IMG/VR virus record: IMGVR_UViG_3300008108_000295
Location: 1 to 49,172 of that record
Direction: 5' to 3' (one strand)
Origin: a virus
DNA length: 49,172 nt
Position 1 is the first letter of the stretch; every line of letters begins with the position of its first letter. The notes beneath the pieces are model-generated. The model saw nothing but the letters and a program-made list of their open reading frames with translations, searched no databases and was not told where the DNA came from. The translations under genes and the position numbers were made by a program. Shown here one piece after another: positions 24,601 through 48,107 of this stretch.

Positions 24601-25983
24601 ACACTGATTGCAAGCAACTCTTTAAATCCAGACATAATTACTTCTGGTACATCTACTGAAGCATACTTTACAAGCCTTTCAGTTCCAGAGACAGTAATTA
24701 CAGCTACAGATAGGCTTGCAGTTAGGATATACGTAACACCTGCTGGTAGAACAATTACACTTCATACAGAAGACAACAATCTTTGTCAGGTTATTACAAC
24801 ATTTACTACAGGTTTAACAGCCTTGAATGGACTTACCAAGCAAGTTCAATACTTTGCTGTAGGTACTTCAGGAACTGACTTTGCTATATCAAGTTCTGTA
24901 GATACGCATACATTCAACCTGCCTACTGCAAGTGCTACAAATAGAGGTGCACTAAGCAGTGCTGATTGGACTACATTCAATAATAAAGTACCAGCTACTC
25001 GTACTCTTACAATTAACAGTGTAAGTTTTGACCTATCAGCTGACAGAAGTTGGACTATCGGACCAACTATCTACTCAAGGGGACTACAGAAGTTCACAGC
25101 AACAGCTGGTCAAACTACATTCACCATTACCAATGGTTATACCGTAGGTCTGGTAGATGTTTACAGAAACGGTGTGAAGCTGGATAATGCACTTGAGTTT
25201 ACTGCATCAAACGGTACTACTGTAGTGCTTACAGATGCTGCTGCTCTCAATGATGTTATTGAAGTTTATAAGTACGGTTCTGAGTACATTCCAAACAATG
25301 CTCTTAGAACTGTTAATACATTTACGGCTACTGCTGCTCAGACCACCTTCAGCGTAACCTATTCTGTAGGATTGCTTGATGTGTTCTACAATGGTGCTAA
25401 ACTCGCTGCTGCTGAATATACCGCTACAAATGGTACTACAGTGGTATTAGCAAGTGCATGTGTGGCAGGAGATATCGTAGAGATTATAGCATATAGTTAC
25501 TTGGTTAATGGATACTCAGGTATCAGCGGAACAGGTAACTCAGGATACATTCCTAAGTTCACATCTGCTACTTCCATAGGCAATAGCTTGATTCAGGACA
25601 ATGGTACTACGATTACGCTTGGTGGCGCATTAAGCGGAACGAGTGCTAATCTTAGTGCTAATATAGTTTTTAATAGAGCCAGTACAAGCGCTGGAAATAA
25701 TATAGAATGGAGAACTGCAAATACTTTAAATTGGTACATTGGTACAAGGGGATTAGTAAATAATAATTTTTATATTGTAAATGAAGCATTAGCAGCAAAT
25801 AATTTAATATTAGATGCCTCAACTGGCGCAGCTACGTTTAGTGCAGATGTAAACACAAGTGGAAAATTTAAGGGTAAAGTAGGTGGAAGTGGAGTTGCGT
25901 TTGAAACAACAAACGCAGTTGATGCTGACTTTACACGGGGAGACGAGTCCAAATGCGATTTTACATATATCTCAAAGTGTTGA
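21631..25983 (+). CDS. Tail fibre, main part (frame continues at 25883-26725)
   Basis: A 1450-residue repetitive fibre. The first 100 residues are helical and probably attach to the tail. Three copies of an FTATAxQTTF domain with VDVYxNGxKL-type strands start near residues 145, 1154 and 1228. Between them are repeated units SVxMSVPTGFAI, STDWTTFNSKQ and TLTINGTTYDLSADRSW, and a Gly6 hinge near residue 893. About 150 residues near 630-790 are paralogous to residues near 110-270 of the 28411 fibre. The frame ends at 25983 soon after a GGGG run (25937-25940). Skipping one base there joins it smoothly to the downstream reading frame and its chaperone domain. Without that, the fibre lacks a trimerisation tip. 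Confidence 0.85.
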   Translation: MGYTSLQIGEILLKADRTMYKIGSIAYNNMFAENDETLDYQRDIIYIYKKAVEWGDDYYVGTAKLDKIVERLAAYIAIYDYGTLSPVYSSSVSVITTWIPPGAALNDLTDVTLTNILDKQYLRYDASSQQWINFGAGTTIRSSQAFTATAGQTTFTTTAPFEANLIDVYLNGVKLNTASYTVFGQHSIILNDAAEAGDIMDVIIYDPVSTIINPPSQAGNAGKFLTTDGFSLSWAVNPLGSVTSVDMSVPTGFAITGNPVTTAGTLALGFAVGYSLPSNALQGNWDTAYNRSLTSASVSGTTNKTLTLNKQDGGTITATWSDYDTQGVTSVSTNIGTTGTDINSNVVNPTTTPTININVPDASAASRGALTSTDWTTFNSKQAAITLTTTGSSGVATFIANVLNIPNYGAALSGYVPTSRQLTINGTAYDLSADRSWSVGTVTSVNMSVPTGFAIANNPITTSGTLALSYAAGYALPTTASQGNWDTAYTFVSNFPSQTGNAGKYLTTDGSVLSWAVLNLANYVPTSRTLTINGTTYDLSADRSWTIVAGVSSVAGTAPISAVNVSGAVTISISQSSASTDGYLSSTDWTTFNSKQPAGNYITSLTGEATASGPGAASVTLTNSAVIGKVLTGLNVTGGSISATDSILAAFGKIQNQINGLIGGLQYQGTWNASTNTPTLTSGVGTNGYFYIVSVAGSTNLDGITDWKVGDWAVYHAASWQKVDNTESVTSVNGFTGAVSLTTSNISEGTNLYFTDLRARQAISLTTTGTSGAATYDNTTGVLNIPQYQGGVTSFNTRTGAITLLDTDVTGALGYTPVTNARTLTINGTTFDLTANRTWSVGTVTSVGLTMPSAFTVTNSPVTGSGTLTVTAAGLASQYVRGDGTLGDFPAGGGGGGASVSYYLNGSVNQGTFGGNTYYEMNKSPVIGLGTDFTISSNGYIASFITDANDPALLLIPGGNFNLEFYFSASSGGGAPSYYVELYKYDGTTFTLIASNSLNPDIITSGTSTEAYFTSLSVPETVITATDRLAVRIYVTPAGRTITLHTEDNNLCQVITTFTTGLTALNGLTKQVQYFAVGTSGTDFAISSSVDTHTFNLPTASATNRGALSSADWTTFNNKVPATRTLTINSVSFDLSADRSWTIGPTIYSRGLQKFTATAGQTTFTITNGYTVGLVDVYRNGVKLDNALEFTASNGTTVVLTDAAALNDVIEVYKYGSEYIPNNALRTVNTFTATAAQTTFSVTYSVGLLDVFYNGAKLAAAEYTATNGTTVVLASACVAGDIVEIIAYSYLVNGYSGISGTGNSGYIPKFTSATSIGNSLIQDNGTTITLGGALSGTSANLSANIVFNRASTSAGNNIEWRTANTLNWYIGTRGLVNNNFYIVNEALAANNLILDASTGAATFSADVNTSGKFKGKVGGSGVAFETTNAVDADFTRGDESKCDFTYISKC
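25624..25648 (+). repeat. Fibre module repeat A (second copy 27220-27244)
   Basis: Twenty-five bases starting GGCGCAYTAAGCGG are repeated at 27220-27244 with one mismatch, in the neighbouring fibre. They encode ALSGTSA at a module border. Confidence 0.8.
25816..25842 (+). repeat. Fibre module repeat B (second copy 27439-27465)
   Basis: Twenty-seven identical bases starting GCCTCAACTGGCGCAG recur at 27439-27465. They encode ASTGAATFS, a common fibre motif, but identical at DNA level. Confidence 0.85.
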
Positions 25984-26725
25984 TGGGAGTATGCCAATTA
26001 GAATTAGGAACACTTTTGGTGCAACAAGCAATACAAATTCAACGGTAGATATACTTTCTGAACTTGTTGGTTCTGGGTTAACTGGTCAAATAGGTTCAAG
26101 AATAAGAACTGGTAAAGAAGGCGATTATTCAAGCGGTGCTGCAAGAGATGCATATTTATCATTCGCAACTGCTGAGAATGACAATTTAGTAGAACGCATG
26201 CGCATAACGAGTGGGGGGATAATTGAGGTTAGAAATGGAAATACTGTGGGTGGTGAAATAAAGTTGACTGGTGGTGATAATGATATGACCATTAATGGTA
26301 GCAGAGGCCAAATTATATATGAAATTAATGGTGCACAAGAGTATGTTATGGATAGTTTACAATTTTACCCATCACCAGATAACGGAAATGCACTTGGTAC
26401 ATCAGGGAATAGATGGACAGCAGTATATGCTGTAAACGGTACAATTCAAACTTCAGATAGAAATGAAAAAACAAACATTATATCTTCTGATTTAGGCTTA
26501 GACTATATAACTAAATTAAAACCAGTATCCTACAATTGGAAACAAAGCGACAATAAAAAACATTATGGTTTAATTGCTCAAGACGTTCAAGAATTAGGTA
26601 TTGAATTTGGAGGACTAAATATTGAAAATGAAAAGTATGGACTAAACTATTCAGAATTTATAGCACCTCTCGTCAAAGCCATCCAAGAATTATCTGCACA
26701 AGTAGAAGAATTAAAAAATAAATAA
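25883..26725 (+). CDS. Tail fibre tip with S74 intramolecular-chaperone domain (frameshifted continuation)
   Basis: Read from a GTG this gives 280 residues, but the first 20 or so are probably not real. The natural protein joins the upstream fibre near 25937-25940 with one base fewer. Residues 25-185 are a fibre shaft with ERMRITSGG. From about 190 the domain starts SDRNEK (Ser191, Asp192) and continues with KPVSYNWK and YGLIAQDVQELG, the hallmark of the peptidase S74 / endosialidase chaperone that trimerises the fibre and then cuts itself off at the Ser. It ends in a Glu/Lys coiled coil. Base composition is more A/T-rich than the upstream fibre, suggesting an exchanged module. Confidence 0.8.
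   Translation: MEVELRLKQQTQLMLTLHGETSPNAILHISQSVDGSMPIRIRNTFGATSNTNSTVDILSELVGSGLTGQIGSRIRTGKEGDYSSGAARDAYLSFATAENDNLVERMRITSGGIIEVRNGNTVGGEIKLTGGDNDMTINGSRGQIIYEINGAQEYVMDSLQFYPSPDNGNALGTSGNRWTAVYAVNGTIQTSDRNEKTNIISSDLGLDYITKLKPVSYNWKQSDNKKHYGLIAQDVQELGIEFGGLNIENEKYGLNYSEFIAPLVKAIQELSAQVEELKNK
26192..26218 (+). repeat. Fibre module repeat C with G-run (second copy 27922-27948)
   Basis: Twenty-seven identical bases starting GAACGCATGCGCATAACG recur at 27922-27948. They encode ERMRITSGG and end in a run of six G here and seven G in the second copy. Confidence 0.85.
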
Positions 26726-33190: not shown

Positions 33191-33220
33191 AAGGCTGCCT
33201 TTTTGGGCGGCCTTTTTATT
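33191..33220 (+). terminator. Intrinsic terminator before the export cassette
   Basis: AAGGCTGCC (33191-33199) pairs over 9 bp with GGCGGCCTT (33206-33214, one G-U), then TTTTATTT. The loop reads TTTTTG. Confidence 0.9.
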
Positions 33221-33232
33221 TCCTTAAATTTG
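33202..33232 (+). promoter_or_regulatory. Promoter with -33 TTTG and -7 TAnnTTTG, 4-base leader
   Basis: TAAATTTG (33225-33232) ends 4 bases before the ATG at 33237. A TTTG at 33202-33205 lies 19 bases upstream, the Bacteroidota -33/-7 spacing. The -33 element is the loop of the preceding terminator hairpin. Confidence 0.6.
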
Positions 33233-33236
33233 CTCT

Positions 33237-33818
33237 ATGAAAAATATTATATACATCGTAATCATCGCATTTCTTGGAATTTTCATTCTGAAATCTGAGT
33301 GCGGTAAACCAAAAGCACCCGGCCAAGAAATTAAAATTGACGGAAAGAAGTACGAAATCGTAAAGACTGACACCATCTATAAGGAGCATACAACGGTAAA
33401 GTATAAGAAGGGAGATGAAATCTTTCACGACACCACTATATACGTTGAGGTGCCTAAAGATATTGTGATTGATACTCAAGCCATTCTGAAGGACTACTAC
33501 GCAAAGAATGCGTACATAGACACACTCCATACAGACCTCGGACCCGTTGTTGTAAAGGATACCATCCAAAAGAACAAGATTCAGGGCAGAACCTACGAGG
33601 CATACCTCAAGACCAAAGAAGTGGTGACATACGTGAAGGATAAACCCAAAGCACAGCTATACTTAGGAGTAAGAGGTGACGTAACTTCAGAGAAGAAGTT
33701 TGGTGGAGTTGGTCCACAAATCATGTTGAAGACCAAGAAAGACAAGATGTACGGAGTTGGTGTAATGCTCACCAACGAGAAGCCAGTGTATTCAGCTAAC
33801 TTCCTATTTAAACTGTGA
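33237..33818 (+). CDS. Membrane-anchored periplasmic protein (DUF6808-like)
   Basis: A 193-residue protein with a single N-terminal hydrophobic segment (about residues 4-20) followed by Cys22. The rest would face the periplasm. Repeated Lys/Thr/Val strands (DTIYKEHTTVKY, FHDTTIYVEV) and a C-terminal beta hairpin region (LYLGVRGDVTS, VGPQIMLKT, YGVGVMLT) look like part of a barrel or an outer-membrane contact. The preceding residues do not form a good lipobox. It is the first gene of the export cassette and could bridge inner and outer membrane, as a spanin does. This is inference. Confidence 0.5.
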   Translation: MKNIIYIVIIAFLGIFILKSECGKPKAPGQEIKIDGKKYEIVKTDTIYKEHTTVKYKKGDEIFHDTTIYVEVPKDIVIDTQAILKDYYAKNAYIDTLHTDLGPVVVKDTIQKNKIQGRTYEAYLKTKEVVTYVKDKPKAQLYLGVRGDVTSEKKFGGVGPQIMLKTKKDKMYGVGVMLTNEKPVYSANFLFKL

Positions 33819-34291
33819 GGAAGCTAATACTATTCATATTAGTATTATTTCACATATATACCCAAGGGCAGGATATATACATTGACAGCGTCAAGAACAG
33901 TATCCCTACTGGACCAATAACGGCCAATAAAAACCTTGGATTTGGAGTCAAGAATATACTTGGTGAAGCACTCCAAGAGAAAGGTTTTAACCTGACAAAC
34001 GATAAAGAAAAGTCAGAGTATAGGCTGACGGTAGAAATATATTTCTTTGACATTATCCAAACCAATACTGGTATATCTGTAATAAAAAAACAAACCAGTA
34101 CAACAGTTCTTGGGATGAAAGGAAGCCTATACAAGAACGGAAAATTAATAAACTCAAAAAAGGTAGAAGAAGCATCTACCGAAGTAACCATAGCCAATCT
34201 TATCATATCAGAAGATGGGAAGCCCAATCAACAGTCCGTAAGTAACGTACTGAAGAAGTCTTGCCAAACTCTAATTGATAAATTGCTATGA
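33815..34291 (+). CDS. Secreted CsgG-like core protein
   Basis: A GTG start overlaps the previous stop (GTGA). A signal peptide fills residues 1-19 (LILFILVLFHIYTQGQ), then a short mature domain. The mature part has LGFGVKNILGEALQEKGFNL, a YRLTVEIYFFDI strand and later EVTIANLIISEDG, with a final helix VLKKSCQTLIDKLL. The same order of elements appears in the 37055 product (GLGVTNII, EYL, YVYIEVYDF...), which I read as CsgG-like, so the two appear to be distant paralogs. CsgG forms an outer-membrane secretion pore for curli subunits, but this copy lacks the membrane-loop length of a pore and may be a periplasmic relative. Confidence 0.45.
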   Translation: MRKLILFILVLFHIYTQGQDIYIDSVKNSIPTGPITANKNLGFGVKNILGEALQEKGFNLTNDKEKSEYRLTVEIYFFDIIQTNTGISVIKKQTSTTVLGMKGSLYKNGKLINSKKVEEASTEVTIANLIISEDGKPNQQSVSNVLKKSCQTLIDKLL

Positions 34292-36174
34292 AAAAAATCC
34301 TAGTACTCCTATTCACACTTGCCTCACTTAACACATTTGCTCAGAGAATCGGACACGTAACACAGCTGTCGAATGTAAGACGTGGTGACACGCTTGACAT
34401 CAAATGGTTCTACAAGCCAGATACGGCAGACATCCGTACATTTCAGATTGACTTCCAGTTCAAAAAGCACTTGATGTCACACATTGCGACAACCATTGAC
34501 ACTCCGTATGTAACGGTCGCAAGAACCCCAGAGATTGCCTACAAGCAGTTTGATGGCTACAAGTATGATGCATATGCCAACGGAAGCTACAGCTATACGG
34601 CTGACACTAACTGGGCTATTGGTAGGAACTATTTGATTCTACCTGCTGGAGCCAGACTCCAAGACAGCGGATACATCATACACAACCTATACAAGATAAA
34701 TTCCGTTGCACCAGAGTTCGCTTCAGACACCATATCTGTGAACTGGGCTAGACTGTTCAATGCGAGTGGAAACAGTATCGGAGACAACGTAGTAAGTCTG
34801 TACAGCCAAAAGATGAAAGTATTCCTAAAGGGAAACTATACCATATCTGGCAAGTTCTTCGTAGGTGCTGCGACTGGGATGCCTACCTTGATTGCATACG
34901 AGGCAAATACGGGCATAGAAGCGTCTAGGACTGTACCAGCGTCAGACGGAAGCTATCTGCTTGACAATCTGGAAGAATACACCAAGTACAAGATTAAGGT
35001 CGCCTTCTCTACGGACAGCCTCATAACCATGAGGGATAGAGCCGTTACCATAGCGGATGCCCAGAAGGCATTCAATGAGTTTACCAACGCAGATGTAAAC
35101 CAGAGCTACCCTAAGACCTACCTAAATCACCCTCTGTCGTATTTAGCAGCGGACATAAATTTCTCTAAAAAGTTCGATGGCGCAGACCCATATAACATTT
35201 ATGCATCTATAAGTGGTCTCAAGCCAATAGACACTGGTAAGCTCATCAACGTAATTAGAAAGCCAGAGTACGATTCCCTAGCCGTTGGAGTTGACCAATG
35301 GGGCAACTGGATGGCATACGTAGATACTGGTAGATACATCTACGACAGCATAGCGACCTCATCCTTGGCAAATATTGACATTAAGTACTATATACTCGGT
35401 GACGTAGATAGGAGCCACAGTTCGCCTGTAATCAACTCACAGGGGCAAGTTATCGGTGGGGTGTCATACAAGAACAACTTTACTGTTGACATACCCAACA
35501 CAACGGTTTCTGCTGGTCAGCCAATGTTCGTTCCGTTCAACGTATCCATGACGGCCAAGACTGCTGCCATTCAGTTCGAGATGAAGTACAACCCCAAGGA
35601 AGTTAAGTTTGAGGAAATCGTAACAAACGTAAACGGACCATGGCTGCAGTACGTTACCAATGACGCAACCAATGGTATCGTTAGGTTCGGTGGCATCAAT
35701 AACCAGACAAGTGGATACTTGGAAGGTCAGGCAGTGCCGTTCAAGCTGAAGTTCTCTCCGCTAGACCCAACCAAGGATGTGTCTACGTTTGTACAGATAC
35801 GTAAGCTCATGGATGCTGCCAACGTGAATGGAGACAAGATGACGATAGCCGTTAACACACAAAACATTGAGCTTGTGAGTGCTGTGAACAGAGGGTCTGT
35901 ATTTGTGAACCAAGAGCCTACAATAAAGGTGTTCCCCAACCCAAGTACTGGGTTCTTTGAACTTGTCGTAAATTTGCCTTCAAATACCAATGCTACGGCT
36001 TACATAAGCGATATCATGGGTAGAACGGTGATGAACTTGGGTAGGTTTACAACGGAGGAGGGGCAGGCTACTTTTGTAAAGCGTGTTTCGATGCCTAACT
36101 TAGCATCAGGGATGTATCACCTAGTGTTGTACGACAACAGAAAGAGATACGTAAAACAAATTATAAAAGGATAA
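34288..36174 (+). CDS. Exported cohesin-like protein with T9SS type A sorting domain
   Basis: A 628-residue protein that overlaps the previous gene (ATGA). Signal peptide: residues 1-19, ending NTFAQ. The middle includes a beta sandwich near 185-250 (SGKFFVGAATGMPTLIA). LGDVD at 370-374 is a motif often seen before cohesin or dockerin regions. Residues about 396-540 look like a cohesin-type jelly roll (VSAGQPMFVPFNV, then AAIQFEMKYNPKEVKFEEI). The C-terminus (about 545-628) has PNPSTG at 550-555, a DIMGRTV strand and LASGMYHLVLYD, then a basic end. That is the type A sorting signal of the Bacteroidota type IX secretion system. The product should leave the cell through host T9SS and be fixed on the surface or released. 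Confidence 0.82.
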   Translation: MKKILVLLFTLASLNTFAQRIGHVTQLSNVRRGDTLDIKWFYKPDTADIRTFQIDFQFKKHLMSHIATTIDTPYVTVARTPEIAYKQFDGYKYDAYANGSYSYTADTNWAIGRNYLILPAGARLQDSGYIIHNLYKINSVAPEFASDTISVNWARLFNASGNSIGDNVVSLYSQKMKVFLKGNYTISGKFFVGAATGMPTLIAYEANTGIEASRTVPASDGSYLLDNLEEYTKYKIKVAFSTDSLITMRDRAVTIADAQKAFNEFTNADVNQSYPKTYLNHPLSYLAADINFSKKFDGADPYNIYASISGLKPIDTGKLINVIRKPEYDSLAVGVDQWGNWMAYVDTGRYIYDSIATSSLANIDIKYYILGDVDRSHSSPVINSQGQVIGGVSYKNNFTVDIPNTTVSAGQPMFVPFNVSMTAKTAAIQFEMKYNPKEVKFEEIVTNVNGPWLQYVTNDATNGIVRFGGINNQTSGYLEGQAVPFKLKFSPLDPTKDVSTFVQIRKLMDAANVNGDKMTIAVNTQNIELVSAVNRGSVFVNQEPTIKVFPNPSTGFFELVVNLPSNTNATAYISDIMGRTVMNLGRFTTEEGQATFVKRVSMPNLASGMYHLVLYDNRKRYVKQIIKG

Positions 36175-36177
36175 TAT

Positions 36178-36474
36178 ATGTCAGAAGAACAAGAAGGTAC
36201 ATGGTCTAGCCTTAAAAAGACCATCGTAGGTACACTTGCTACCGTAATTACAGGAGCTGGAGCATGGCTTGGAACTACCATGTTTGGTGGTGAAGAAGCT
36301 GCTACACCAGCACAAGCTGCACCTCCAAGCATTATCATCAACAACACCCAACAGCAACAACAAGCTGCTAGTGGTGGTACCAAGACAATCGTAGTAAAAG
36401 AAAAGGCTGCAGAACCTGCAGAAAAGCCTAAGCCTAAAAAAGATGCTTGGGCAACAGAAGAACCTAAATGGTAA
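36178..36474 (+). CDS. Small membrane protein, holin-like
   Basis: A 98-residue protein with one hydrophobic segment near residues 13-33 (TIVGTLATVITGAGAWLG), then an Ala/Pro/Gln/Lys-rich tail. One membrane helix and a charged C-terminus suit a holin, antiholin or accessory membrane protein. It sits 3 bases after the T9SS cargo gene and 5 bases before the next membrane protein. No family is recognised. Confidence 0.45.
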   Translation: MSEEQEGTWSSLKKTIVGTLATVITGAGAWLGTTMFGGEEAATPAQAAPPSIIINNTQQQQQAASGGTKTIVVKEKAAEPAEKPKPKKDAWATEEPKW

Positions 36475-36479
36475 AAAAT

Positions 36480-37055
36480 ATGAGCAAAGAACAAACATCA
36501 AATACAGGCTTTCAAGCCTTATTGAATGCAATGATGAAAAGACGTTGGCTTATTACAGCCCTCGTACTCGGAACATTTATTTTAATTGTAGCTGGAATAT
36601 TTGTAGCTATAGAAATCGGCAGTGCAATGGCTGGAGAATGGAAGGAGCTGTTGCTTCTTATGCTCGGTGCATTCATTGGTAGCTACGGTAAGATTATAGA
36701 CTACTGGTTCAGTGATACAGACAAAGACAAGATGCTGGTCCAGAAGATGGATGAGGAGGATGGTGTAAGCCTATCCAATACAGCTGACATCAAAGACACA
36801 CCACGTGAGCATACATCTCTAGTAGACCCAACATTTGCTGCATTTGCTGCAAAGGCTACAGAAGAAAAACCAAAGGAGAAGAAAGGCACAGAGATTGATG
36901 AGGATGGTGATGGAGTGATGGATGGCATCGACTTTGACGGTGACGGAAAGATTGACGAATACTTTGCACACAGACAATGTGAGCACGTATGGGGAGATTC
37001 AGATGGAGATGGTGATGAGGAGTGTCTCAAATGCGGAAAGATAAAAGACATATAA
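36480..37055 (+). CDS. Holin-like membrane protein with acidic Ca-type motif and Cys cluster
   Basis: A 191-residue protein (start at 36480 chosen because 36468 lies inside the previous coding end). Two membrane segments lie near 22-48 and 56-73. The second, followed by an IIDYWFSDT stretch, resembles a segment common in Bacteroidota phage holins. Residues about 140-163 carry repeated DxDGDG (DEDGDGVMDG, FDGDGKID), the loop type of EF-hand and dockerin calcium sites. The end has Cys167, His169 and ECLKCG at 181-186, a possible zinc cluster. It is overlapped by the next gene (TAATG). Holin-like anchoring plus a calcium-binding tail next to a cohesin-like protein is unusual. Confidence 0.55.
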   Translation: MSKEQTSNTGFQALLNAMMKRRWLITALVLGTFILIVAGIFVAIEIGSAMAGEWKELLLLMLGAFIGSYGKIIDYWFSDTDKDKMLVQKMDEEDGVSLSNTADIKDTPREHTSLVDPTFAAFAAKATEEKPKEKKGTEIDEDGDGVMDGIDFDGDGKIDEYFAHRQCEHVWGDSDGDGDEECLKCGKIKDI

Positions 37056-37810
37056 TGAAAGAATCACCAAAGGATATATTCGTTAGGTGGCTCATAGTTG
37101 TTCTATTCTTTACAGCAATGGTAGCAATATCACTTGGTGCCAAGTCTCAGACGATTGGCTCTGTAAAGACAGAAGGCTATCAGGCATCCTTTGAAAAGAA
37201 AGTGAACATTGATTCACTCATGGACTACGAAGGTCCTAAGATTCCTATACAGCTACTCAATATCGGAATCAATGAAGAAGTGTTCGCCATGTACCCAGAG
37301 CTGAAAGATAAGCGTGTGGGTCTTGGTGTTACCAATATCATTGTAGAATACCTTGAGGAGACAAACAGATTTACTTTTACTGAAGACAAGACTGAAATCA
37401 AGAACAGGATGGTGAAGCAATTTCAGGCATCTGCATCTGGATTTACAGAGAACAAGTTGGATGGAAAGGGTAAGATTAAACTCGCAAAGTATTTCGTATA
37501 TATCGAAGTGTACGACTTCAGTGTTTCTGTTGACGAAGAAATCAAAGTAGCGAAGGGCATGAAGGAAACAATGGTAACCAGACTTGGTCTTCAAGCAAAG
37601 TTTGTAGATGCTGAGACTGGTGAATACTTCACAGCTTCTGGTCTTGGTGAAGCAAAGACCGTTAGAGAAGCTACACTCATGAATGACGATAACCTATCAG
37701 AAATTAAATTCAACCAATCCACAATTGGAATTACAACCAAAAAAGCCTTGGAAACTGCAGCTAGCAGAGTTGTTCTGCGCATGATAAAAAAGCAGATTTT
37801 CTCAAGGTAA
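37055..37810 (+). CDS. CsgG-like outer-membrane assembly protein
   Basis: The ATG at 37055 overlaps the previous stop by one base; the earlier ATG at 37022 lies inside the neighbour. The 251-residue protein has an N-terminal hydrophobic stretch (about 10-33) ending near SQTIGS. Then comes a domain with ELKDKRVGLGVTNIIVEYLE, a NRFTFTEDK strand, YFVYIEVYDFSVS, and TRLGLQAKFVDAETGEYF and GLGEA, ending in a helix VVLRMIKKQ. This is the plan of the curli pore CsgG (GxGVxxII helix, Y-V-x-x-E-V strand, 'DAETGE' turn). It could oligomerise in the outer membrane and pass other products of the cassette. No lipobox Cys is seen. Confidence 0.55.
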   Translation: MKESPKDIFVRWLIVVLFFTAMVAISLGAKSQTIGSVKTEGYQASFEKKVNIDSLMDYEGPKIPIQLLNIGINEEVFAMYPELKDKRVGLGVTNIIVEYLEETNRFTFTEDKTEIKNRMVKQFQASASGFTENKLDGKGKIKLAKYFVYIEVYDFSVSVDEEIKVAKGMKETMVTRLGLQAKFVDAETGEYFTASGLGEAKTVREATLMNDDNLSEIKFNQSTIGITTKKALETAASRVVLRMIKKQIFSR

Positions 37811-37811
37811 A

Positions 37812-39053
37812 TTGTATAGACTATTACTAACGATATCGCTCATACTAACACTGCACCAGAATCTGAACGCTCAGTCTCTGGTGTATTCGTTTACAGACCC
37901 ATGCACCAAGGCAGTGTCGGTGTTCACAATACCACTGACTGGAACCACGACCATTTTATTTTTAAATCGGACAGGCTCTTTTTCTGCACAAGATGTAGCG
38001 AGTGGAGCGTTCGGAGCGTGGATAGCGAATGTATATGCGGAGTATAAAAAAGTTTCTCCTTGTTCTGTACAGTCTGGCCAAGTCACTCAAAATCAAGTAA
38101 CATCCAATGTAGTTGGTAGTACGGTGGGTGCTGCTGCTTCTAGCGTTGCTGGTGCTGCTGCATCTGCTGCTTCAAGTGCAGCTGCGAGTTCTACACCTTC
38201 TGCGAGTGCTTCGAGCTCTACGAATTCTACGAGCAGTTCTTCTTCAAGTTCACAGAGCAGTTCTGAGTCATCATCATCAAGTAGTGAGAGTTCTAGCAGC
38301 GAAAGCTCAAGTTCTGAATCATCTTCGGATGAGGGTGGTGGAGACAGCGAGGAAAGCGATTCTGGTGGAGGCAAGGGCAAGGGAGGGAAGTCTGGGAAGG
38401 CTGCCAATGCGAATCCGATGATAGTTGCCTCCGACTTTACAACGGCACAGAACCTAGACAAGTCATTCACCCCCATACTAAACATAGGTATATCACAGTC
38501 ATCACTAACTGGTCAGACCAGCTGGGGTCTTACATCAATGACGTGGATGAACTTTAAACAGTTTGCCCTGTCTGGTAGGTACACTGCCATGAAATTCAAA
38601 GGTGGAACATTGAAGTTTATAGATACCTACAGTGCTACAATAGTTTCCTCATATGGAAACTTAATATCGTTTGCAGGCTACTCCAGAATAATGTTGCTAG
38701 GCAAGTATGGTGTGGCTGGTTTTGCAGCCAATTTTGCACTCTCTAATATCAAGATAGACAAGAGTATCTTTTTGGCACCTTCACTAACTGCTTTCTATAC
38801 AAGGCCGTTTCAGGTATCTACAAGGCTTAGTGTTTCTCCAGAATTATATCTTATGGCAAATCCAATCATGTACTCTACGAAAGATAGAGTAACTTCGGTG
38901 GACCGTTCTGTAGGTTTCTTCGGTGGTTCTGGATTCGACTACCAGTTGTCTAGGCGGTTCAAGATAAACTTCAACTATAAGGTCAATGCAAGTACGAAGA
39001 AGGACTTCCCAGTTCTCAGCTTCTTCCTTATAGGAAGCAAGGTCAATCTATGA
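37812..39053 (+). CDS. Outer-membrane barrel with long serine-rich linker
   Basis: Starts with TTG one base after the previous stop; the N-terminus reads as a signal peptide (LLLTISLILTLHQNLNA, about 1-21), which supports that start. Residues 22-95 form a small domain with Cys32 and Cys85. Residues about 105-176 are almost pure Ala/Ser with Glu/Asp, then Gly/Lys to about 195. From about 205 the sequence shows alternating hydrophobic strands and aromatic girdles to the C-terminal FLIGSKVNL, as in a small outer-membrane barrel. The flexible linker may project the N-terminal domain across the periplasm or outside. It resembles no family I can name. Confidence 0.55.
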   Translation: MYRLLLTISLILTLHQNLNAQSLVYSFTDPCTKAVSVFTIPLTGTTTILFLNRTGSFSAQDVASGAFGAWIANVYAEYKKVSPCSVQSGQVTQNQVTSNVVGSTVGAAASSVAGAAASAASSAAASSTPSASASSSTNSTSSSSSSSQSSSESSSSSSESSSSESSSSESSSDEGGGDSEESDSGGGKGKGGKSGKAANANPMIVASDFTTAQNLDKSFTPILNIGISQSSLTGQTSWGLTSMTWMNFKQFALSGRYTAMKFKGGTLKFIDTYSATIVSSYGNLISFAGYSRIMLLGKYGVAGFAANFALSNIKIDKSIFLAPSLTAFYTRPFQVSTRLSVSPELYLMANPIMYSTKDRVTSVDRSVGFFGGSGFDYQLSRRFKINFNYKVNASTKKDFPVLSFFLIGSKVNL

Positions 39054-40189
39054 GATTCTTATTTGTCATATTACCCATCTTCTGCTTCAGCCAAAATACC
39101 ATTACTGTTAATATCAGCATGGATACAGCTGCTAACATACCCAATCCAAAGGTTAGGGTATATCAAAATGGTGCACTCGTTAACACTTTTACGTACTTAA
39201 AAGTGCCGCACGTGTACACTTATCAGCAGGTAAATGCAACCTATGCATTCGAGCCGTACTTTGATTCTATACCTGCGAGCATGGTAGACACAGTAGATTG
39301 GAGGTCTGTTGCAAGTGAGGCCATGTATGTGGATGCACCTAACGGACAAAGAGGACTGTTCCTAAACTCAGCACAGAAGTTCTGGGGTGCAGACGTAAAA
39401 GAAATTAAGAAGCTGGATATGGGGCAGGCATATAAGATACTCAAAAAGAATTACCTCAGTACAGTTAGTAGATTTACTCAAAGTAATTTGCAATACACTG
39501 TATATTCTACACACAATAGAAACGGTTCAACTACTCAATATGGTTCATACGCAAACTCGGCTTCTGACTTTGATGTCATGTTCAATACGGCTAACAGTAA
39601 TACTGTTGTTCATTCGTCAGGCACTGCAAGTCCAAACGTTCTTTTCTACTTTACAAGTGCCAGCACTCTTGTAGCGAATGGGGTACCCGTTCCAAATAAT
39701 TATGACTTTTATGGTATAAAGATTACTGGAACATTCATAGCAAAGGAGACTGGAATATATTATTTTGCAATAGATGGTGATGATGGAGTGGATTGCCTTA
39801 TAGATGGGCAAGTGGTAACATCTTTTTATGGACCACATGGATTTGGAGGATTTAGGATTGGTGCTAAACAAATGGTAGCTGGTACAGCTTACTCACTTAT
39901 GGTTAGGATGCAGGAGTTTGGTGGGGGTGACGGTCTTTCATTTGCATGGAGAAGACCAAGCCAAAACTCGTATTCTATACAGCCAGAAGAAATAGCTACT
40001 GCTACTTCATCATATTACGGACCAAAGGTGGATTGGTTCAAGAAAGAAACTTTAGATGCACTGACCATTAATAATTGGGGTACTGCAGTTCCGCAGACAA
40101 GATTCTTTTTGCCTGTAGCATCTGGGCAATACACACTCAATTTAAAATACGTTGTAAAGGGCAATGCAGCCCTATCTAGCCCCCAATGA
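39050..40189 (+). CDS. Exported PA14-domain protein
   Basis: A 379-residue protein overlapping the previous stop (ATGA), with a short signal peptide (FLFVILPIFCFS, 1-14). The N-terminal half is beta-rich. Residues about 197-303 read as a PA14 carbohydrate-binding domain: a YDFYGIKITGTFIA strand, GIYYFAIDGDDGVDCLIDG, GGFRIGAK and LMVRMQEFGGGDGLSFAW. The PA14 fold binds glycans in adhesins and glycosidases. No T9SS sorting signal follows, so it probably ends in the periplasm or outer membrane. It closes the export cassette and could bind host polysaccharide or cell wall. Confidence 0.62.
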   Translation: MRFLFVILPIFCFSQNTITVNISMDTAANIPNPKVRVYQNGALVNTFTYLKVPHVYTYQQVNATYAFEPYFDSIPASMVDTVDWRSVASEAMYVDAPNGQRGLFLNSAQKFWGADVKEIKKLDMGQAYKILKKNYLSTVSRFTQSNLQYTVYSTHNRNGSTTQYGSYANSASDFDVMFNTANSNTVVHSSGTASPNVLFYFTSASTLVANGVPVPNNYDFYGIKITGTFIAKETGIYYFAIDGDDGVDCLIDGQVVTSFYGPHGFGGFRIGAKQMVAGTAYSLMVRMQEFGGGDGLSFAWRRPSQNSYSIQPEEIATATSSYYGPKVDWFKKETLDALTINNWGTAVPQTRFFLPVASGQYTLNLKYVVKGNAALSSPQ

Positions 40190-40206: not shown

Positions 40207-40229
40207 CCTATTTTTGCCTTATAAATAGG
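40207..40229 (+). promoter_or_regulatory. TAnnTTTG promoter overlapped by an inverted repeat
   Basis: TATTTTTG (40209-40216) ends 17 bases before the ATG at 40234. It lies in a 7-bp inverted repeat, CCTATTT (40207-40213) with AAATAGG (40223-40229). There is no U-tract, so an operator or RNA hairpin is more likely than a terminator. Confidence 0.4.
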
Positions 40230-40233
40230 CATT

Positions 40234-40461
40234 ATGAAACAATTTTTTTGCGAGGATAATGGCAGGCTTTCCATGAAAAGACTCTGCGGATTTATCTGCG
40301 TGATTGCCCTGTGTGCAACCATGTACCACAACAGCTTTTCTGAATCACATTTTGCTCCAAGTGAAGGACTTGTGTATGCTGTAGCATCCCTCGCATTCGG
40401 TTGTTTAGGCCTTACATCTGCTGAAAAAATATTCAAAAAGAAAGAGGATGAATCTAAGTAA
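40234..40461 (+). CDS. Holin-like protein
   Basis: A 75-residue protein with two hydrophobic segments (about 16-33 and 46-64) separated by HNSFSESHFAPSEG, and a Lys-rich end. This is a pattern I recognise from small membrane proteins next to endolysin genes in Bacteroidota phages. It overlaps the endolysin gene by 14 bases. A holin forms inner-membrane lesions that let the endolysin reach the cell wall. Size, topology and neighbour fit well. Confidence 0.7.
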   Translation: MKQFFCEDNGRLSMKRLCGFICVIALCATMYHNSFSESHFAPSEGLVYAVASLAFGCLGLTSAEKIFKKKEDESK

Positions 40462-41047
40462 ACTTGACACTAAAATCCCAAAGGGGGTTATTGACCAGAT
40501 TCCACAGGTCATGGAGAAATTTAAGATAGACACACCACTTCGTATGTCTCACTTTTTAGCCCAGTGTGCCCATGAGTCTGGTAACTTCAAGTTTATGTCA
40601 GAGAACCTTAACTATTCTGCCAAAGGTTTGATGGGGGTATTTAAAAAGTACTTCCCAACAGAAGCCATTGCCAAGCAGTACGAAAGAAAGCCAGAGAAGA
40701 TTGCAAATAAGGTATATGCTTCACGCATGGGGAATGGTGATGAGGCTTCAGGGGAGGGTGGAAAATTTAAGGGCAGGGGTTATATCCAGCTGACCGGTAA
40801 GCAGAACTACCAAGCATTTTTTAAGTCTGTTGGTATGCCAATAGATACAGACCCTAATTCAGTTGCTACAATATATCCACTTCTTTCAGCAGCATGGTTC
40901 TGGAACAGCAGAAACCTAAATGCTATCGCTGACAAGGGTGCTACCAATCAAGTTGTCACAGACATCACTAAGAAAGTAAACGGAGGAACCCACGGATTGG
41001 AAGACAGAATATCTAAGTTTAAACTATTTTACTCTTTACTAGCATGA
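40448..41047 (+). CDS. Endolysin, glycoside hydrolase family 19
   Basis: A 199-residue lysozyme. HFLAQCAHESGNF places the catalytic acid at Glu43. GKFKGRGYIQLTGKQNY (about 106-122) is the hallmark of the GH19 chitinase-like lysozymes, which cut peptidoglycan between the amino sugars. A second acidic residue lies in the loop GDEASGEGG. There is no signal peptide, so release depends on the holin encoded upstream. Length and motifs are typical for the family. Confidence 0.92.
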   Translation: MNLSKLDTKIPKGVIDQIPQVMEKFKIDTPLRMSHFLAQCAHESGNFKFMSENLNYSAKGLMGVFKKYFPTEAIAKQYERKPEKIANKVYASRMGNGDEASGEGGKFKGRGYIQLTGKQNYQAFFKSVGMPIDTDPNSVATIYPLLSAAWFWNSRNLNAIADKGATNQVVTDITKKVNGGTHGLEDRISKFKLFYSLLA

Positions 41048-48011: not shown

Positions 48012-48035
48012 GTGTATGTCAACAACTGATACAGC

Positions 48036-48107
48036 GGTCAGGAAAGGATTCGAACCTATGTCAATGCGGAGAGCGACTCCACAGCGTCACCATTGCGCCA
48101 CCTGACC
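48036..48107 (-). tRNA. tRNA-like gene (anticodon read as CGC, identity uncertain)
   Basis: Minus-strand RNA of 72 bases without CCA. Acceptor GGTCAGG/CCTGACC pairs fully. The T-arm has TTCGAAT with one mismatch in its stem. Anticodon stem GTGGA/TCCGC encloses the loop GTCGCTC. By U33 the anticodon would be CGC (Ala), but base 37 is U and the acceptor has no G3-U70 pair, so the charging is doubtful. The D-stem is short (GCG/CGC). Confidence 0.72.

Follow-up and report, generated by a model that had tools for sequence, protein, structure and literature searches.

A conserved, phage-borne set of genes for exported and membrane proteins lies within a cassette of eight genes, here numbered g1 to g8, at positions 33,237-40,189 of the viral record IMGVR_UViG_3300008108_000295, the whole 49,172-base stretch of which is referred to below as the window. 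Five of these genes (g2, g3, g4, g6 and g7) form the core of the module, co-occurring far above chance, and the module as a whole, although borne by phages, is not bound to one phage lineage. Judged from sequences and predicted structures, the core probably encodes a phage-specific machine for export at the outer membrane and display of proteins on the cell surface, a reading that is preferred here with some reserve. The core genes, with the sizes of their products in amino acids (aa), are as follows.

33815-34291, plus strand: g2, 158 aa, exported YajG/TraT-like protein (PF03923, Lipoprotein_16, in homologues).
34288-36174, plus strand: g3, 628 aa, predicted surface protein with a signal peptide, a dockerin-like module, a cohesin domain and a type-A sorting domain of the type IX secretion system (T9SS), from Pfam and NCBIfam matches.
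36178-36474, plus strand: g4, 98 aa, inner-membrane protein that has one transmembrane segment, then a low-complexity linker and a C-terminal Trp, as judged from an alignment.
37055-37810, plus strand: g6, 251 aa, exported protein of predicted CsgG fold, the most conserved part of the module (PF03783 in a homologue).
37812-39053, plus strand: g7, 413 aa, exported protein with an N-terminal domain, a Ser-rich linker and a predicted C-terminal outer-membrane barrel (sequence and model).

Every locus was retrieved with a core gene as the query, so that the counts given here describe co-occurrence and not prevalence among phages. At least 597 relatives of g6 were found in viral contigs, the best being 65-94% identical. 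Among the first 80 g6 loci, g2 is present in 71, g3 in 77, g4 in 68 and g7 in 77, and a second scan, with the g6 homologue of the cultured Flavobacterium phage immuto as query (57% identical to g6 of the window), gave 80 further loci with the same core, on contigs of up to 308 kb. When the scan started from g2, g6 was present in 68 of 77 new loci and the remaining nine stop at contig ends; when it started from g5, g6 was present in 72 of 76 new loci and two have g5 alone. The order g3-g4-g6-g7 is kept in 238 of 242 viral loci, from diverse phages. Many loci are near-copies; clustering at 90% g6 identity reduces them to about 68, and at this level the order holds in 51 of 53 clusters. The position of g2 is less fixed (before g3 in 168 loci, after g7 in 67). 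An initial annotation of the window had suggested that all eight genes serve one machine at the cell envelope and had proposed conserved synteny as a check; the single machine is strongly supported by the fixed gene order and by the finding that g2 lacks g6 only at contig ends, and the core of the proposed set is borne out, but its width is not, g1 being present in 38, g5 in 35 and g8 in just 7 of the first 80 g6 loci. That these are ordinary late envelope genes, merely adjacent and without a common machine, would accord with the tight packing common in phage genes and with the variability of g1, g5 and g8, but the core genes stay together in strict order in phages unrelated to one another, and this, with the mutually exclusive exchange of a sorting domain described below, makes the idea very improbable indeed. 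The variable genes are the following.

33237-33818, plus strand: g1, 193 aa, N-terminal membrane anchor and periplasmic part, a spanin-like candidate by its neighbourhood, not core.
36468-37055, plus strand: g5, 195 aa, a pair of hydrophobic segments plus an Asp/Gly-rich tail, optional, resembling a holin in shape only.
39050-40189, plus strand: g8, 379 aa, exported PA14 protein, accessory (PF07691, 1.3e-10).

As to which genomes carry the module, a search of 84,980 species genomes yielded only three matching contigs, all from metagenome-assembled genomes (MAGs) of Flavobacteriaceae or Bacteroidetes, and these three are likely to be phage sequence. A 254 kb contig binned in a Bacteroidetes MAG (L164) carries the cassette, and is probably a large phage genome that was mis-binned, or a prophage. 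The portal protein of the window is 27-31% identical to those of Flavobacterium phage elemo, Cellulophaga and related phages and the uncultured Manatee Spring podovirus. A relative of it was found in 8 of 50 g6-bearing records, some of which are fragments; it is missing from the other 42, of which about 20 exceed 100 kb. Conversely, none of 87 annotated phages with the portal family of the window is among the g6 matches, the matches among annotated phages being four immuto records only. It is because most g6-bearing records lack this portal, and these 87 phages lack g6, that the module is regarded as independent of any one lineage. Queries with g3 and g7 against annotated phages gave no match.

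An indication of where the machine acts comes from g3, for which three parts can be placed in the window.

35398-35427, plus strand: GDVDRSHSSP motif, closing the module common to accessory proteins, from comparison of g3 homologues.
35482-35832, plus strand: cohesin domain, residues 399-515 (PF00963, 2.1e-5, over cut-off).
35929-36168, plus strand: T9SS type-A C-terminal sorting domain, residues 548-627 (TIGR04183, 6.5e-9, over cut-off; PF18962, 7e-8).

With its N-terminal signal peptide, MKKILVLLFTLASLNTFAQ, and this tail, g3 agrees with the T9SS cargo protein recognised in the initial annotation; in immuto the cohesin domain is found in gp015 (PF00963, 5.9e-9). About half of the g3 homologues stop after the cohesin domain, and phages with such a short g3 encode a separate lipoprotein of 117-130 aa between g3 and g4, whose domain is homologous to the one that sorts g3 (by hhalign, with a probability of 96.9 and E 1.9e-10); a Por_Secre_tail match was obtained for 28 of 56 of these stand-alone lipoproteins. 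Over 276 loci the sorting domain is fused to g3 in 157, separate in 115, both in none and neither in 4, and in three of these last four the lipoprotein is encoded elsewhere in the cassette, so that the cohesin protein is accompanied by a T9SS-type sorting domain, in one form or the other, in 275 of 276. A lipobox is present in 101 of 102 stand-alone lipoproteins, and in 57 of the 102 at least two acidic residues occur within the next six positions, resembling the export signal of Bacteroidota surface lipoproteins (PMC5080379). The exchange of fused and separate forms, with these surface-type lipoprotein signals, points to a sorting domain tied to the machine and to the outer-membrane surface as the site of g3. 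An explanation in which the domain is missing where hosts lack a T9SS is not supported, the lipoprotein form being present in a Flavobacterium MAG contig (the binning of which may be wrong). Where a locus encodes two large exported cohesin/dockerin-type proteins, a tandem pair of sorting-domain lipoproteins is encoded as well in the four cases checked (L011, L013, L321 and L333).

Domains of the Lectin_C, Laminin_G_3, GEVED, Ig-like or PA14 type occur in exported proteins encoded within or next to the cassettes, and these accessory proteins have in common with g3 a module in which a dockerin-like segment is combined with a GDVN(L/R)SHSS motif, a motif of this type being found in 49 of 50 g3 homologues. 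Examined for the paired calcium-binding repeats of a dockerin, they showed single motif-like segments, with a weak PF00404 match (0.009) in one protein only. The PA14 domain that the initial annotation had assigned to g8 is confirmed by the match given above, the C-terminus of the protein being a degenerate-looking version of the shared module; g8 is an exchangeable accessory and no part of the core. Docking of accessory proteins to g3 may be proposed on this basis. Among the three roles suggested in the initial annotation (outer-membrane lysis, surface display and exclusion of other phages), surface display fits best, because of the near-constant pairing of cohesin protein and sorting domain and because the accessories have lectin-type domains.

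Within surface display, two purposes may be considered. Displayed proteins could mask or bind receptors, or block the particles of other phages, and so exclude superinfection; the inferred surface destination favours this, as does the variation of the accessory binding domains between phages, which competition would predict, while there was no match in PADLOC (a collection of defence systems, which covers exclusion only in part) and no relevant paper was found in the open literature searched, so that exclusion is rated as a possibility on the unlikely side. Alternatively, and still compatibly with display, the lectins could attach to cells or particles nearby and so help progeny to reach hosts, as has been proposed for the curli genes of pelagimyophages (PMC7029224); the differing lectin-type domains would suit this too, but no amyloid subunit or fibre protein was identified and a methylophage bearing CsgGF showed no clumping (PMC9004378), and such sibling capture seems less likely again. 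Diversification of the lectin proteins by a diversity-generating retroelement was considered and dropped, as no reverse-transcriptase-like motif was found in 315 loci using a crude pattern. A signal-peptide-bearing endonuclease (gp012 of immuto) is encoded beside the cassette in 17 of 80 loci, at 9935-10513 of L082 and in related loci.

Turning to the membrane components, g6 (start ATG at 37055, in a TAATG join with g5) is by its model a CsgG-fold protein, with weak support from sequence. An AlphaFold model based on 39 homologues (pLDDT 72, pTM 0.62) gave CsgG for all of its top 16 matches among PDB folds (E 2e-8 to 9e-7), followed by FlgT, GNA1162, PelC and LptE among others. No protein of the window matches the Pfam CsgG family (PF03783) above cut-off, and 2 of 39 g6 homologues match it, the best at 2.3e-4. 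For g2, PF03923 is matched by 23 of 41 homologues (best 9e-5), and a blastp match to the immuto g6 homologue (7e-4) makes it a possible distant paralogue of g6. Comparisons of g2 with g6 and of g2 with CsgG by hhalign were not significant, and any likeness of g2 to CsgG therefore derives from the Lipoprotein_16/TraT hints and that one blastp match; a PDB sequence search with g6 and g2 profiles gave no meaningful match.

The remaining core proteins would provide a barrel and a tether. The barrel of g7 was modelled by itself, using an alignment from one phage group (the two groups mixed being too divergent).

38403-39050, plus strand: predicted 12-strand beta-barrel of g7 (AlphaFold pLDDT 86).

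In a fold search its best match was FapF (E 4e-7, TM-score about 0.7), with other barrels next. In g4 a single hydrophobic helix behind a Lys pair is followed by the low-complexity linker, and the C-terminal Trp (codon 36469-36471) is invariant in 92 of 92 distinct homologues. The initial annotation had called this protein holin-like; no holin family in PHROG, Pfam or NCBIfam matched it, and with a linker of periplasm-spanning length and an invariant last residue it is not a typical holin, so that a plain holin was dropped as an explanation. The other holin-like protein, g5, is present in 37 of 65 clusters; in the viral contigs L290 and L304 it stands by itself, with no other cassette gene.

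A scheme can be put together from these parts in which ring formation, the direction of transport, the contact made by the Trp, docking and the purpose are what we infer. Proteins g2, g3, g6, g7 and g8 would cross the inner membrane via Sec; the outer membrane would hold a CsgG-type ring formed by g6 and a FapF-like barrel, g7; and g4, anchored in the inner membrane, would span the periplasm with its linker so that its terminal Trp contacts the outer-membrane complex. The cohesin protein g3 would reach the cell surface by means of its T9SS sorting domain in this phage and of a lipoprotein of that domain in others, and lectin-type accessories such as g8 would use the shared dockerin-like module to attach to it. 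The most likely effect of such a coat would be to change how the infected cell is perceived, either keeping competing phages out or rendering cells adhesive. Several observations weigh against the scheme. The TM-score of g6 against CsgG is just 0.41-0.46, a lipobox-like pattern occurs in 5 of 39 g6 homologues and not in g6 of the window, and a higher charge is found in the segments that match the CsgG membrane hairpins (0.32 and 0.29, compared with 0.13-0.22 and 0.16), on which grounds g6 may be a peripheral ring and not a pore. A 12-strand barrel is a common fold, and likeness to FapF is no proof of export; docking of g8 to g3 is hypothetical; and lysis genes beside the module in many phages would fit a role in lysis too. 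The fuller proposition, that a phage-only machine exchanged among unrelated Bacteroidota phages remakes the infected cell's surface, with exchangeable lectins on a cohesin scaffold and the host T9SS or lipoprotein-export route as alternative anchors, is given a little less than an even chance.

A rival reading is a device for outer-membrane lysis or its timing, in which g4 and g5 at the inner membrane, and g6 and g7 opening or weakening the outer membrane, would aid endolysin and spanin. Holin-like, spanin-like and endolysin genes adjoin the module in the window and in many relatives, and such a role has been proposed for CsgGF of the methylophage Melnitz (PMC9004378). In the window the lysis pair is as follows.

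40234-41047, plus strand: g9 and g10, flanking lysis pair, not core; g9 is a 75 aa holin-like protein and g10 a GH19-type endolysin (phrog_181, 3.1e-68).

The location "inside the lysis region" given in the initial annotation thus holds for the window, where g9 and g10 follow with their own promoter box, but not for immuto, in which the cassette comes after replication genes and some 8 kb from the annotated endolysin. Nor does lysis account for the cohesin, lectin, PA14 and T9SS sorting domains or the surface-type lipoproteins, and the 87 phages of the same portal family that lack g6 make it less likely as the main role; overall it is considered unlikely. A separate case is g1, which adjoins the holin-like g9 and the endolysin in many loci and is also the neighbour of an M15 endolysin in MW202828, a phage that gave no g6 match. 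Its anchor and position would fit a spanin, with no family match seen, and because it so often travels with an endolysin it is assigned to the lysis set, as a spanin-like candidate, and not to the core.

All eight open reading frames are present and tightly packed, as the initial annotation had them, the seven junctions being overlapping or spaced by at most 3 nucleotides (nt) (-4, -4, +3, -7, -1, +1 and -4), and a signal peptide or membrane anchor can be discerned by eye on all eight proteins. The signals that may delimit the unit are these.

33191-33214, plus strand: intrinsic-terminator-like hairpin and T-run, apparently closing the upstream unit.
33225-33232, plus strand: TAAATTTG, putative promoter box of Bacteroidota -7 type for the cassette unit, 4 nt upstream of g1 and directly after the hairpin.
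40209-40216, plus strand: TATTTTTG, putative promoter box of the g9-g10 pair.

Of 32 plus-strand starts, 9 have a TAnnTTTG box 4-21 nt upstream where 0.8 would be expected, so that boxes near starts look like real promoters and a single g1-g8 unit is a reasonable reading, while over the window as a whole the pattern is at chance frequency. The initial annotation was mistaken in seeing no other such box before 40209: sense-strand matches occur at 35604, 35784, 35969 and 36069, all within g3, at about chance density and none near a start. The nine start-proximal boxes (at 506, 2827, 5360, 14238, 21076, 28399, 32705, 33225 and 40209) may together map the promoters of the entire late region.

Elsewhere in the window, head and tail genes occupy position 1 to about 32 kb, upstream of g1-g8. 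The protein encoded at 25883-26725, which as listed overlaps the 3' end of a gene for a 1450 aa protein by 101 nt, matches many tail spike and tail fibre families at their C-terminal end, which suggests a shared C-terminal processing or chaperone domain. A tRNA-Ala gene (anticodon cgc; 48034-48107, minus strand) lies amid minus-strand genes near the right end of the record.

Parts of the module have counterparts in known systems. A gene for a CsgG-fold protein also belongs to curli (type VIII) secretion, and pelagimyophages and Melnitz carry one in a small linked set (their CsgG/CsgF genes), but g6 lies below the Pfam CsgG cut-off, mostly lacks a lipobox and has charged hairpins, and the pelagiphage operon has not been described as including a cohesin protein, Trp-ended tether, barrel or lectins. 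No match or annotation for the partners csgA, csgB, csgE or csgF was seen in the window or in immuto (other loci had no dedicated search with CsgA/B/E/F models). FapF, the export barrel of Pseudomonas functional amyloid, likewise has an N-terminal part and a linker ahead of 12 strands that form an outer-membrane barrel, but g7 is about 10% identical to it, the barrel being the part compared, and no FapC-like substrate or FapD-like protease was noticed. With T9SS cargo g3 shares a signal peptide and the TIGR04183/PF18962 tail, but it is phage-encoded and in half the phages the sorting domain is a separate lipoprotein, a form that to our knowledge does not occur in ordinary T9SS cargo. Cellulosomes similarly combine cohesin with dockerin, but no catalytic domains were found here and the dockerin-like match is weak, and degenerate in the window. 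Bacteroidota surface lipoproteins have the same lipobox followed by acidic residues as the stand-alone domain, which differs in being phage-encoded and built from a T9SS sorting-type domain. The T9SS tail excepted, no family in NCBIfam, PADLOC or PHROG convincingly covers the core, and the open literature, which covers part of published work, yielded no account of this combination or of its restriction to viruses. The module is thus neither curli, Fap nor T9SS machinery, in spite of its similar parts; it is new as a set, while every fold in it is known.

If the surface-display reading is true, phages of a very abundant aquatic bacterial phylum carry a dedicated machine that redecorates the infected cell, connecting CsgG/Fap-type export with type IX secretion and with competition among phages. 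A T9SS sorting domain could then be a separable partner, and not only an export tag that is cut off, and hundreds of unnamed viral genes would acquire a testable function. With the cultured phage immuto and its Flavobacterium host to hand, the idea can be tested now.

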